64,000 bases of DNA from Eubacterium limosum. Lineage in GTDB: Bacteria; Bacillota; Clostridia; Eubacteriales; Eubacteriaceae. The notes under the pieces are model-generated. The model saw nothing but the letters and a program-made list of their open reading frames with translations, did not search any database and was not told where the DNA came from. The translations under genes and the position numbers were made by a program. This document shows, in pieces, positions 27,382 to 31,896 of the stretch (positions are counted from its first letter, which is position 1; every line of letters starts with the position of its first letter). Where the stretch lies: positions 2,542,001-2,606,000 of the forward strand of contig NZ_CP019962.1 in assembly GCF_000807675.2 (NCBI RefSeq), read 5' to 3'.

Positions 27382-27903
27382 ATGAAGAGGACAAGTGAAG
27401 CTGCTGGCAAAGCTTTGAGAAGTAAGAACATACTTTTTATAGAAGCGGTTTATGATGATTATGGCAATAACAGCCGTATCCACTATCTGGATGAAGGGCG
27501 CGCAATCAGCTGTCTGGCCGACGGGGTCGGCCCCCGGGATTACATTAAGAGAATGATGCGGACACGGTGTCTGAGCGAAACCATGTACCGCCAGTATATG
27601 GCAGAGTGGCTGAGTATGGAGAAGGACTACCCTTATCTGGCAGGTGCAGGCGCATTGATGGTGCCGGTAAAAACACGCGTGAGCGTCAAGTTTACAAACA
27701 ACCGACGAAATTATGACGACGCCTACAGTTTTTATAATTTCCATTTTTTTGATGAAGATATGGACCTGCAGACTGGCAAAGGCAGTATTTATCTCGCAGG
27801 TGATTTTGTGATTAAAACCTACCAGAGCGGCAGCCAGAATGAGCTGAACTACGAGCGGGCCAAAAGGGTGCTGTCGGGGCTGCGTGAGATTTGGGAGATG
27901 TAA
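27382..27903 (+). CDS. Uncharacterised protein, possibly ComK-related
   Basis: 173 residues, cytosolic, rich in Tyr and Arg, with AGGGAG before the start. I do not recognise it firmly. The order of elements (an N-terminal strand region, a basic RTRCLSETMYRQYMAEWLSM segment, YPYLAGAGALMVPVKTR, then a YNFHFF...NELNYERAKRV tail) recalls the competence regulator ComK, where a basic helix precedes a FPT/VPVKTR-like strand and a late WI/YN block. The similarity is weak. It lies behind a leader with a strong promoter and internal terminator, so its expression is probably controlled by attenuation. Confidence 0.6.
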   Translation: MKRTSEAAGKALRSKNILFIEAVYDDYGNNSRIHYLDEGRAISCLADGVGPRDYIKRMMRTRCLSETMYRQYMAEWLSMEKDYPYLAGAGALMVPVKTRVSVKFTNNRRNYDDAYSFYNFHFFDEDMDLQTGKGSIYLAGDFVIKTYQSGSQNELNYERAKRVLSGLREIWEM

Positions 27904-27972
27904 AATAATTTACCATCCCGATCTTTTTTCGAGTACAATATGAGATAGAAACTGAAAGATGAGGGATATTAA

Positions 27973-28836
27973 ATGAAATTAATACAGGATATTACACCAC
28001 TTTGTTTATCCGCCGGTATTCTTCGGGAATTTGAAGAGTATCTTCGGCAGGAAGAACGAAGCATTAACACCATCGAAAAATATGCGCGCGATCTGCGAGC
28101 ATTCTTTTACTTTGTGGGTGACAGAGCGGTTACGAAAGAGCGGGTGTTGGCTTGGAAGGAAAGTTTGGTGGTAGGGTATGCTGCTTCCAGTGTCAATTCT
28201 ATGTTAGCCGCTGCAAACAGCTTTTTAAACTGGGCAGGTTACCCGGAATATAAAGTGAGATTCTTGAAAATCCAGCGCGGTGTTTTTTCAAAGCCTGAGA
28301 AAGAGTTGACACAGAGTGAATATGCTAAATTGGTGAAAGAAGCGAGTAAGAAGGGAAACGAGCGTCTGTCACTCTTGCTCCAAACGATTTGCGCGACGGG
28401 GATACGTGTATCAGAGCTTCAGTATATTACGGTAGAGGCTGTTTATACAGGTTGGGCAGAGGTAAACTGTAAAGGAAAGCGGCGTATGGTTTTTATAACA
28501 GACAAGCTGTGCCGTCTCCTGAAAAAGTATATCCGAAAACAGAAAATAAGGACGGGGTCTGTTTTTATTACTAAAAATGGAAGAGCGCTGAACCGTTCTA
28601 ATATTTGGAGGGACATGAAAGCCTTGTGTAAAAGAGCAGGCGTTAAACCTGGAAAGGTTTTCCCGCATAATCTGCGCCATTTATTTGCCAGAAGATACTA
28701 TTCGATGGAAAAGGACCTGTCCCGTCTTGCGGATATTTTGGGGCATACAAATGTTAATACAACTCGAATATATACGGTAGAAAGCGGTGAAACGCATGCA
28801 AAACAAATCGGGCGACTTGAGTTGATTATTACATAA
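27973..28836 (+). CDS. Tyrosine recombinase, candidate DNA invertase
   Basis: 287 residues. An N-terminal SAM-like core-binding domain (about 15-95, EFEEYLRQEERSINTIEKYARDLRAFFYF) precedes the catalytic domain. Active-site residues are present: Arg about 145 (ATGIRVSEL), Lys in CKGKRRMV, HNLRH (about 231-235), GHTNVNTTRIYT with His about 258 and the nucleophilic Tyr about 267. The last two codons overlap the left arm of a perfect 21-bp inverted repeat that bounds the following 245 bp. Its size and position fit a phase-variation recombinase acting on that segment. No phage genes adjoin it. Confidence 0.88.
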   Translation: MKLIQDITPLCLSAGILREFEEYLRQEERSINTIEKYARDLRAFFYFVGDRAVTKERVLAWKESLVVGYAASSVNSMLAAANSFLNWAGYPEYKVRFLKIQRGVFSKPEKELTQSEYAKLVKEASKKGNERLSLLLQTICATGIRVSELQYITVEAVYTGWAEVNCKGKRRMVFITDKLCRLLKKYIRKQKIRTGSVFITKNGRALNRSNIWRDMKALCKRAGVKPGKVFPHNLRHLFARRYYSMEKDLSRLADILGHTNVNTTRIYTVESGETHAKQIGRLELIIT

Positions 28837-28851
28837 TTTTTCTTATGTAGT
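28831..28851. repeat. Left inverted repeat of candidate invertible element
   Basis: 21 bp beginning ACATAATTTTTC and ending TTATGTAGT, exactly the reverse complement of the copy at 29055-29075. Each arm is itself a small palindrome ACATAA/TTATGT, as expected for recombinase core sites. It contains the recombinase stop codon; inversion would leave that codon unchanged. Confidence 0.85.
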
Positions 28852-28991
28852 CATTAAAATTACAGGAAAAAATTTAAAGAAAGCAAAATAGATTAAGCGA
28901 AAATAATTATAGTAAAAAGGGTGAAATTGATTCTGCTTGTACCTTTAACCTATTAAAAAATAAAAGTTTTAGTATTTGAATACTGATATAC

Positions 28992-29020
28992 TTGCACGTT
29001 TGGATAAAAACATGTATAAT
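28992..29020 (+). promoter_or_regulatory. Promoter inside the candidate invertible segment
   Basis: TTGCAC, 17-base spacer, TATAAT, facing the downstream chemotaxis receptor gene about 345 bases away. The -10 is perfect; the -35 matches three of six bases. Confidence 0.65.
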
Positions 29021-29054
29021 TAAAAAATATATTTCCAGAAATTTTTTTAAAAAT

Positions 29055-29075
29055 ACTACATAAGAAAAATTATGT
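29055..29075. repeat. Right inverted repeat of candidate invertible element
   Basis: Exact reverse complement of the left arm. It is followed at once by two direct copies of TATGTGGTCAA (29071-29092), the first overlapping the arm; these could be accessory binding sites. Confidence 0.85.
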
Positions 29076-29365
29076 GGTCAATATGTGGTCAATACTAATG
29101 GGTCATTGAATTTAAAACCATTATTTAAGTTCCTTTTAAAATAATCTGAAACGATAGTCTGTTCTGAAACGATGATTTTTTAGAAATGTAGCATAATGTA
29201 AAAAGGTTTGTTATCAGGCTGCCTCAGAGACTCAAAACAGGCAGAGGATATTTCCATGTCTATATATTAGCGTTATGGTATAGGTATGAGTTGTGATCTC
29301 GGCGGTTACAATCCTGCGTTGAGCGAAACAATTAAAACCATACAATAAGAAACAGGGGGGAAGAT
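29076..29365 (+). promoter_or_regulatory. Long untranslated leader of MCP gene
   Basis: No gene is seen here. It holds two 11-base direct repeats TCTGAAACGAT (29145-29155 and 29163-29173), possible regulator sites, and a hairpin CTGCCT/AGGCAG (29219-29244). I looked for a cyclic-di-GMP riboswitch and did not find its conserved core. Confidence 0.5.
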
Positions 29366-31036
29366 ATGTTTAGGAATATAAAAATCAGGGCGAGAATGTT
29401 AATTTCATATGGCATAATCATCATTCTTTTGTTAATTGCCAGCGTTATTGCTCTGTTTATGCTGCAAAAGGTGGGGACGAATCTCACGAATTTCTATCAC
29501 AACAACTATACTGTGACCGTCGAGGCGTGGAAGGCCCGCCGGTCAATGCAGGCAGCCCGGGCAGACATTATGCAGTCGATTCTGGAGACAGACCAGGCGG
29601 CGACCGAACAGCTGATTGAGCAGGCCGAGCAGGAACTCGCGTTAATGCGAGGTACTTTTCCAATCATCCGGGAAAGATTCCGCGGAGATATTGAGCTGGT
29701 AAGCCAGGTTGAAAATGTATTGGAAGAGGCAATTCCTTATCGTGACCAGATATTTGAACTCACAAGGGAAAATAAAAAGACCGAAGCCGCAAAGCTCGTA
29801 AATGAAAAATATGTGCCACTGCTTGATAAAATGGGGGATCTTTTATCACAAATATCAGAGACAGCAGGAAAGAATGCAAAAACGATGGTGGAGCAGGGAA
29901 ATACCTTTGTGTTTACAGCCATTGCTGTAGTGTGTGTGGTCGCGGGGGTCAGTATTGTTTTGGCGGTTGCTCTGGGAGTTTATATTGCTGATGGTATCTG
30001 TAAGCCTGTAACTGAGCTTGAGAAAGCAGCTGCGGACATCTCGGCTGGCAAGCTGGATACGGACATATCTTATCAGTCAGGCGATGAGCTGGGCCGCCTT
30101 GCAGACAGTATGCGCGCAACCATCAATGATCTGAGATTTTATATTCAGGACTTTGGGTATGTTATGGCAGAGTTGTCTAAGGGGAACCTGACAGTCAATA
30201 CAAAGGCTGAATATCAGGGGAATTTTGCGGATTTGCAGCACAGCATTATGACATTGACAGAAGCGCTCAATGATACATTGAGGCGGCTCAATGAAAGTGC
30301 TGAGCAGGTTGCGTCAGGCTCTGAGCAGGTTTCCTTCGGAGCGCAGGAGCTGTCCCGGGGCGCGTCGGAGCAGGCGGCTTCCATCGAGGAAGTGGGGGAT
30401 GCAATTGCCATGGTTTCCTGCCAGGTAAAAAATAATGAGGATAACGCCATGCAGGCAAGGCTGGAAGCAAGGCGTGTTGAGGAAGAAATGACAGCGAGCA
30501 ATCAGAAAATGCTGGATATGATCAGTGCGATGAAGGATATAAATGAAACATCCGGCGCGATCAGAAAAATCATTAAAACAATTGAGAATATTGCCTTTCA
30601 AACCAATATTCTTTCCTTGAATGCCGCCGTTGAAGCGGCGCGTGCCGGGGAAGCCGGAAAAGGATTTGGTGCAGTTGCCGATGAAGTTCGAAATCTTGCC
30701 GCTAAGTCTGCGGAAGCGTCAAAGAGCACAGCGCAGTTAATTCAGAATGCGGTGGCGGCAGTGGAAAAAGGAACCCTGATTGCCGATGAAACGGCCAAAG
30801 CCCTTGTGATATCAGTAGAGAATGTTAATAATGTCGCTTGCAGGGTCAATGAGATTTCAGAGGCGTCTACAATGCAGACAGAATCAATTATCCAGATAAA
30901 TGAGAGCATCGCCCAAATCTCAGAAGTGGTGCAGTCAAACTCTGCCACAGCGGAAGAAAGTGCTGCCGCCAGTGAAGAATTATCAGCGCAGTCACAGCTG
31001 CTCAGAGGGCTTGCCGGCCGGTTTAAGCTGAGATAA
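29366..31036 (+). CDS. Methyl-accepting chemotaxis protein
   Basis: 556 residues. TM1 (about 11-33) and TM2 (about 183-207) bracket a four-helix-bundle sensor domain of about 150 residues. A HAMP domain (about 208-262, PVTELEKAAADISAGKLDTDI) and the signalling coiled coil follow, with the highly conserved hairpin AFQTNILSLNAAVEAARAGEAGKGFGAVADEVRNLA. It would signal to CheA/CheW; the ligand is unknown. AGGGGGGAAG precedes the start. Its transcription may come from the invertible promoter upstream, which would make this receptor phase-variable. Confidence 0.93.
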   Translation: MFRNIKIRARMLISYGIIIILLLIASVIALFMLQKVGTNLTNFYHNNYTVTVEAWKARRSMQAARADIMQSILETDQAATEQLIEQAEQELALMRGTFPIIRERFRGDIELVSQVENVLEEAIPYRDQIFELTRENKKTEAAKLVNEKYVPLLDKMGDLLSQISETAGKNAKTMVEQGNTFVFTAIAVVCVVAGVSIVLAVALGVYIADGICKPVTELEKAAADISAGKLDTDISYQSGDELGRLADSMRATINDLRFYIQDFGYVMAELSKGNLTVNTKAEYQGNFADLQHSIMTLTEALNDTLRRLNESAEQVASGSEQVSFGAQELSRGASEQAASIEEVGDAIAMVSCQVKNNEDNAMQARLEARRVEEEMTASNQKMLDMISAMKDINETSGAIRKIIKTIENIAFQTNILSLNAAVEAARAGEAGKGFGAVADEVRNLAAKSAEASKSTAQLIQNAVAAVEKGTLIADETAKALVISVENVNNVACRVNEISEASTMQTESIIQINESIAQISEVVQSNSATAEESAAASEELSAQSQLLRGLAGRFKLR

Positions 31037-31108
31037 CAGACCATTCAGGCATTTTGGACGTAAAGGCTGGGCGGCTCAGAAATGGTAAAATATTTAACAT
31101 AAAAAAAC

Positions 31109-31133
31109 AACCCGTATCGTGGCGATACGGGTT
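31109..31133. repeat. Dispersed palindrome copy 8
   Basis: AACCCGTATCG-TGG-CGATACGGGTT followed by GTTTTTA, 73 bases after the MCP stop and immediately left of the IS200-like remnant. Confidence 0.9.
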
Positions 31134-31140
31134 GTTTTTA

Positions 31141-31880
31141 TTGTAAAGAAAACCACTTGCTATGCAAGTGGTCCGGAAAAGCTTAAAGCGAGGGTTCAAA
31201 AAACCTCCTATGAAGGGGAAAATAAGGTAAGGTTTGGCAGCCATACTTAAAATCCAAATAGGAGGTAAGTCTTTATGAAAGACAAAAATAGTTTATCACA
31301 TACAGTATATCATTGCAAATATCACATCATTATGATCCCCAAATATAAGAGAATGATAATCTACAACAAATTAAAAAGAGTTATTGGGCAAATATTGAGA
31401 ACTTTAATCGAAAGAAAGCCAGGGATCGAAATCATTGAAGCCGAAGCATGTCCGGATCATATCCATATGTTAGTAGAAATTCCACCGAAATACAGCGTAT
31501 CGAACTTTATGGGATATTTAAAAAGCAAATGAACCTTAATGATATTTGATCGACATGCGCATTTGAAATACAAATACGGAAATCGCAAGTTTTGGGCGAG
31601 AGGATATTCTGTGGACACTGTTGGAAAAAATGAGAAAAGAATCAAAGAGTACATACAGCAACAATTATCGGAAGATAAATTAAGCGACCAAATAAGCATG
31701 AAGGAATATACTGACCCGTTTACGGGTGAATCGGTGAAATAGGCAAATAGAAAAAAGCCCCTTTGAGGGGCCGCCTGTAAAAGCGCTATGGTTGTCAAAT
31801 CTTCAGAGCCCGGAAGGGCACCACAGCAAAATCCCCTTTCAGGGCCGGTTCATACCACCGGATTTTCCGGTGGTTAATGA
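31141..31880 (+). mobile_element. IS200/IS605-type insertion sequence remnant (approximate ends)
   Basis: A single Y1 transposase gene with an internal stop is flanked by hairpins typical of IS200-type ends: ACCACTTGC/GCAAGTGGT on the left (31152-31172), and GCCCC/GGGGC (31757-31771) and ACCACCGGA/TCCGGTGGT (31854-31874) on the right. No terminal inverted repeats or target duplication are expected for this family. Exact ends cannot be fixed by eye. Copies of the dispersed palindrome lie on both sides. Confidence 0.65.
31275..31742 (+). pseudogene. tnpA: IS200-type Y1 transposase TnpA, in-frame stop
   Basis: Together the two parts encode a full-length TnpA of about 155 residues. The HUH metal motif (CPDHIHMLVEIPP) is in the first part, and the nucleophilic Tyr helix (NEKRIKEYIQQQL) and DPFTGE tail are in the second. 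A TGA at 31530-31532 interrupts the frame between FMGYLKSK and TLMIFDRHAHLKYKYGNRKFWARGY; both parts are in the same frame, so one substitution (for example TCA to TGA) explains it. As read, the transposase is inactive unless the stop is read through. Confidence 0.85.
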
Positions 31881-31896
31881 TATGGGGTGGGGTTTC

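Follow-up and report, generated by a model that had tools for sequence, protein, structure and literature searches.

Does the short A+T-rich region between a tyrosine recombinase gene and a chemoreceptor gene of Eubacterium limosum work as an invertible promoter, and is the neighbouring recombinase the enzyme that would turn it? The window, meaning the whole stretch of 64,000 nucleotides that was analysed, provides the coordinates used throughout. An initial annotation had proposed a phase-variable promoter of the kind known from fim switches and the Cdi switches of clostridia. The features that bear on the question are as follows.

27973..28836, + strand: tyrosine recombinase, 287 aa, presumed invertase of the switch (Pfam Phage_integrase, 100.4 bits, and a SAM-like N-terminal domain)
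28831..28851, no strand: left 21-bp inverted repeat (repeat search)
28831..28848, + strand: left core recombination site by the family-wide pattern, ACATAA (28831-28836), middle TTTTTC (28837-28842) and TTATGT (28843-28848), overlapping the recombinase stop codon
28852..29054, no strand: 203-bp putative invertible segment bounded by the repeats (G+C of the whole switch 20%)
28992..29020, + strand: promoter-like TTGCAC-N17-TATAAT (TTGCAC 28992-28997, TATAAT 29015-29020), directed toward the receptor, the presumed ON orientation in the assembly
29055..29075, no strand: right 21-bp inverted repeat (repeat search)
29058..29075, - strand: right core recombination site by the same pattern, ACATAA-GAAAAA-TTATGT, its middle reverse-complementary to the left one
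29071..29092, + strand: tandem 11-bp repeat TATGTGGTCAA, two copies
29366..31036, + strand: methyl-accepting chemotaxis protein, 556 aa, presumed target (4HB sensor PF12729, HAMP PF00672 and MCPsignal PF00015 above cut-off)
31131-31881: IS200-type transposase region with ORF 31275-31532 (Y1_Tnp), right end of a variable block

With a probability of about 0.88, site-specific recombination through the adjacent upstream recombinase inverts the promoter-bearing 245-bp element 28831-29075, and this inversion would switch the receptor.

Repeats, core sites and recombinase in the window

The perfect 21-bp inverted repeats of the initial annotation were recovered, with arms of 21 nt at 28831-28851 and 29055-29075 that are 100% complementary and leave 203 nt between them. 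Shuffling the 1250 bp around them 1000 times with a first-order Markov model gave a longest inverted repeat of 15 nt (copies at most 400 bp apart), and shuffling the whole window (n = 40) one of 14 nt; the window repeats exceed chance. The segment had also been called gene-free, and it holds no ORF of at least 80 aa; likewise, the recombinase stop codon (TAA, 28834-28836) falls inside the left repeat as described. Each repeat carries one core site ACATAA-N6-TTATGT, in opposite orientations. As the left middle reads TTTTTC and the right one GAAAAA, the asymmetric sites face each other, which is the arrangement giving inversion. Outside the right core site, the tandem TATGTGGTCAA repeat possibly provides an extra half-site.

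Exact matches to the core site in the whole genome (a single contig of 4,422,837 bases) were confined to the window pair, on which ground the idea of a master invertase, one recombinase serving many genomic sites, was rejected. Relaxed matches (173 and 199) were not commoner than matches to a reversed control pattern (299 and 294). Among the congeners, ACATAA-N6-TTATGT occurred once in G001 and in none of the other three examined. The switch DNA itself found only short matches in 60 related genomes.

The gene directly upstream of the segment encodes a tyrosine recombinase, as previously noted, and its end overlaps the left repeat. Residues R145, K167, K169, H232, R235, H258 and Y267, which we take to be the catalytic residues (K167/K169 standing for the lysine), were invariant in 18 aligned relatives. 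The best solved relative was the archaeal XerC-like protein 4a8e (83 bits), and no paralogue above 38% identity was found in the same genome, where that match was partial. A former switch, since frozen in a single orientation, would leave a similar picture, and the window copy does appear in one orientation in the single assembly. Against this stand the repeats, still perfect over 21 bp, and a recombinase that is apparently intact, with an open frame and all presumed catalytic residues kept; a frozen switch thus seems improbable.

In an active switch, the recombinase would bind both core sites through the ACATAA arms and the 6-bp asymmetric middle, the short A+T-rich segment would loop and bring the sites together, and strand exchange, presumably cutting within the middles, would reverse the segment. 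In the sequenced orientation (ON) the promoter would face the chemoreceptor gene; in the other (OFF) it would face the 3' end of the recombinase gene, possibly in antisense. The recombinase stop codon would stay in place after a crossover in the middle, since it lies in the outer arm. The window copy would continue to flip and the receptor to be switched with it.

Site pairs and segment orientation among relatives

A scan of one genome per species, which reaches close relatives only, found relatives of the recombinase at 66 loci, with 44 to 65% identity across most of the protein bar a few short or broken matches; C. difficile was absent from this set of close relatives. IMG/VR added four related recombinases (52-58%) and two remote ones. 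Family matches of E 1e-70 or better were present in 55 of 391 sampled genomes of the class, the window genome included, with up to six per genome.

Site pairs lying no more than 900 nt past the recombinase end were present in 63 of 79 loci, and a later set had a pair in 40 of its 44 loci; both counts required middles matching within one base. Among the 16 loci lacking a pair in the first set, 11 end within 150 nt past the gene and five do not (L023, L033, L038, L081 and L083). In the later set three loci were too short and one lacked a pair (1 of 41 usable). Exact sites were counted separately in 60 deduplicated loci, with exact arms and no requirement on the middle, leaving out the near-identical L051-L055, L082 and L065 (also L096 and L099), which were excluded from the 56-locus promoter counts as well. 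Within 700 nt downstream of the recombinase 68 exact sites were present, against none in 720 nt upstream. Wherever a locus held at least two, the middles were reverse-complementary (27/27), with 23 different middles and not one palindromic; the exact pairs of the later set behaved alike (33/33). Arms that are kept while middles drift yet match within a locus would be expected from strand exchange in the middle.

Copies within one genome differ in the same part of the site. In eight of nine genomes with at least two readable copies all middles differ; in the ninth (G167), two of six copies share a middle and two of the six pairs match poorly. Because middles differ between copies, most copies in a genome should not cross-recombine.

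Related genomes, for which the initial annotation had predicted the inverted form, do show it, in five pairs of related loci. Comparison of segments between loci, aligned over at least 60%, gave six pairs in opposite and 60 in the same orientation, the latter including many near-identical copies. The segment was reversed with both flanks colinear in L042/L047, L043/L093, L059/L067 and L139/L148; in L028/L167 the left flank was colinear and the right one not alignable. The inversion breakpoints lay at the core sites in these five pairs; the sixth (L136/L167) was excluded as its inverted part is missing from the full-locus alignment. L043 and L093 belong to Anaerotruncus colihominis strains DSM 17241 (complete chromosome) and JM4-15.

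Two further arrangements were seen at the segment ends and flanks. In the near-identical three-site loci L064 and L065 (4841-5118), a 41-bp piece between duplicated sites stands at opposite ends and inverted, which suggests alternative use of the third site, or partner choice. Extra sites also occur in L035, L036, L039, L040, L059, L063, L071 and L093. The segments of L059 (4847-5126) and L067 (4846-5125) are 99% identical (inverted) and the flanking recombinase region only 83%; exchange or homogenisation seems to have affected the segment independently of its flanks.

Promoter position and segment length

The TTGCAC-N17-TATAAT promoter reported earlier is present and faces the receptor. Its -35 matches the consensus in three of six positions, it was missing from the output of a consensus scan, and an equally good promoter arose in 27 of 500 shuffles of the segment; it appears weak by consensus alone, and its conserved position in the family supports it. 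From the end of the window -10 to the right core site there are 37 bp. This is within the commonest distance class of the family, 35-39 bp between the best promoter and the site that it faces, to which 31 of 56 loci belong; a further nine loci have 46-49 bp. Both bins, chosen after seeing the data, together hold 40/56 loci, where shuffles gave 2.7 on average and 7 at most. The same bins held 23 of 40 later loci (mean 1.8 and maximum 6 in 100 shuffles), a set that is not fully independent, L141 resembling L077 with the same promoter and length. With a free 5-nt bin, 47 of 92 promoter-to-site distances fell in one bin, and at most nine in 40 shuffles.

Promoter orientation was clear in 43 of the 56 loci, with 35 promoters toward the recombinase and eight away, and in 39 of the 40 later ones, with 25 toward and 14 away. 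The recombinase-facing orientation, OFF in the proposed scheme, is hence the commoner one among the clear calls (35/43 and 25/39), and an antisense effect on the recombinase is compatible with these data.

The same orientation counts bear on the reading that the switch is intact and its main output is not the receptor, which would have its own promoter while the flipping promoter produced recombinase antisense or had little effect. The assemblies of most relatives, with the promoter toward the recombinase, point that way, as does the long leader of the receptor (~340 nt). A second weak promoter-like match at 29319-29346, just upstream of the receptor and of a quality found at chance frequency, could permit receptor expression in both orientations. 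No terminator-like site, however, was found between the segment promoter and the receptor, and in most relatives the target is co-oriented and close downstream, several beginning 20-40 nt past the site. We therefore consider an output other than the receptor to be unlikely.

The leader was also considered for a terminator or an RNA structure as the explanation of the region, which was rejected: its folding is no stronger than that of shuffles (z -0.99), and the six Rfam matches, all sub-threshold, include none within 28831-29365.

Segment length follows a regular step across the family. The site-to-site distances of 86 loci showed a period of 10.5 bp, the best among periods of 5 to 20 (R 0.568), and none of 2000 jittered controls was as strong. 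After thinning to below 75% recombinase identity (58 loci), R was 0.52 at 10.6 bp, with none of 1000 controls as strong. Thinning at 65% (22 loci) gave a best period of 10.7 that was not significant, equalled by 183/1000 jittered controls, and at 60% (12 loci) a best period of 9.35 that was not distinguishable from them (287/1000). L067 and L093 were further excluded from the period analysis (redundancy filter) and the free-bin analysis, and L141 (by eye) and L154 (Ns) from the period, thinning and free-bin analyses. Promoter distances clustered near 27, 37 and 47 (50 loci), with an R of 0.73 at 10.5 bp that stands without a shuffled control. The window distance of 227 lies about two bases off the peak of the phase distribution. 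On the simplest reading of the phasing, the sites would need matching helix faces in order to pair over a short loop.

Targets, surroundings and known switches

The gene downstream of the segment, 29366-31036, proved to be a 4HB-type methyl-accepting chemotaxis protein, in agreement with the chemotaxis receptor first annotated there. Targets were scanned in 40 loci, the window and 39 of 62 further loci having a site pair. Domains of chemotaxis, c-di-GMP or phosphorelay signalling occurred in the targets of 12 loci: chemoreceptors in five (the window, L034, L037, L041 and L045), CheW in L031 and L041, GGDEF in L035, L048, L050 and L064, Hpt in L042 and a hybrid kinase in L063. The receptor of L034 starts 1405 nt past the site and that of L041 follows CheW, so both are less direct targets. 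The remaining targets carry surface-protein domains (LRR_5, SpaA, Listeria-Bacteroides repeats) or no domain. None of the three signalling classes was met in 20 later targets scanned (32 found for 40 loci), which include LRR_5, SLH, SPFH, TetR, a TIR-domain protein and a helicase; the signalling enrichment is thus confined to the nearer relatives. The gene behind one switch of the family (L161, 271-1812) encodes a cupin domain and a TIR domain of CAP12/Pycsar type, and is possibly a phase-variable defence gene.

The window receptor shares only 34-41% identity with receptors of other loci in the family and with its best matches among congener proteins. With identity this low there is no evidence of joint long-range transfer, and the idea that the receptor travels together with the recombinase was not supported.

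The genes lie in a block that varies among congeners. In G003 and G001 the flanking genes are adjacent: the alignment ends at window position 27896 or 27898 and picks up again at 31896, and these congeners have 18 and 66 bases in place of the block. G002 holds about 4.1 kb of other ORFs at this position, and the matches of the incomplete G004 do not cover it. No match to the recombinase was found elsewhere in G001-G003 (E 1e-20), G004 having a 44% relative, and no close receptor either, the best being 40% identical, in G001. The absence of the block from two congeners, with no copies elsewhere, indicates that recombinase, switch and receptor come and go together. The IS200-type region at the right end has 91-95% identical copies at other places in two congeners.

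Such a block would also suit a mobile-element integrase, the repeats being remnants of attachment sites or a transcription terminator and not a switch: 27897-31895 is missing from the same place in two congeners, which implies gain or loss as a unit, and the IS200-type transposase adjoins it. Yet the exact site pairs of relatives are inverted, not direct, with a promoter between them at a set distance; a loop of 203 nt far exceeds what a terminator would have, and relatives carry the segment itself in inverted form. This explanation is therefore very improbable, the least likely of those considered.

Two other elements of the surroundings may be recorded. A 173-aa protein without Pfam or NCBIfam match (27382-27903) adjoins the same site in a congener. 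The 25-bp palindrome AACCCGTATCGNNGCGATACGGGTT occurs at 13 places in the 64 kb with at most three mismatches (4484, 4730, 4975, 17709, 20945, 27078, 31109, 31897, 36165, 42711, 46921, 52078 and 52964) and at none in shuffles. The copy at 31109 lies just 3' of the receptor gene, in a terminator-like position, and similar pieces are numerous elsewhere in the genome and in congeners; AACCCGTATCGNNGCGATACGGGTT is a dispersed terminator-like repeat.

In the fim switch of E. coli, the tyrosine recombinases FimB and FimE lie beside a short invertible promoter. The window differs in having one recombinase and a chemoreceptor target, and its protein scored far below the curated Fim-type DNA invertase (FimB/FimE) models (28.5 and 25.9 bits against cut-offs of 222 and 221). 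It shares the fold family of XerA, XerC and XerD, but is placed in a local cassette and stays below the equivalog cut-offs for XerA (148.5 against 220 bits), XerD (122.7 against 329.6) and XerC (118.7 against 335.15). The fim/Cdi-like working that had been proposed is well supported by the relatives, with their inverted site pairs and promoters 3' of the recombinase gene and the five pairs in opposite orientations; membership of the recombinase in the Fim families was not supported at the curated cut-offs. Judged by its sequence, the window switch is a member of this known kind of inverton, ordinary-looking and of a family widespread in Clostridia. The family's rules for spacer and phasing are of greater interest than this one copy.

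Published work on Clostridia describes inversion sites close to genes of signalling and chemotaxis, the functions most prevalent nearby, and in Anaerotignum propionicum one such site adjoins a methyl-accepting chemotaxis protein (Sekulovic et al. 2018, PMC5903667). In C. difficile, according to the same study, the sites largely depend on the remote RecV and only Cdi7 adjoins a recombinase. The window switch resembles those described in being a short intergenic invertible segment in Clostridia, and its recombinase family, core site and phasing are not named in the portions of that paper covered here. In the hCom2 gut community, 32 of the 33 members of inverton group 139 came from Clostridia, nearly all near a tyrosine recombinase of invertase group 35 (PMC11892184). 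These two groups probably represent the family of the window switch, a likeness drawn from their published description; the portions of that source covered contain no site rule, spacer rule or helical phasing. Literature searches, reaching titles and abstract openings of mostly open-access papers, gave no description of a spacer rule or phasing for the family.

The family may represent a portable, self-contained module of Clostridia, a proposal to which we would give even odds. It would consist of one recombinase and a pair of sites whose arms are conserved and whose middle, specific to the locus, prevents cross-recombination between most copies in a genome. Promoter distance and segment length would change by whole turns of the DNA helix, since pairing across a short loop would require both sites to lie on one face. 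Attached to unrelated genes, and repeatedly to chemotaxis and c-di-GMP signalling, the module would let cells diversify sensing as well as display. If the window switch works as proposed, the cells of one culture would differ in making a given chemoreceptor and hence in what they sense. The family offers many natural experiments on the tolerance of a recombinase for different 6-bp middles and on the control of inversion by loop length and helical phase, and could be a source of tools in the form of recombinase-site pairs that work independently of one another. With the site rule, such switches can be found from sequence without read data.
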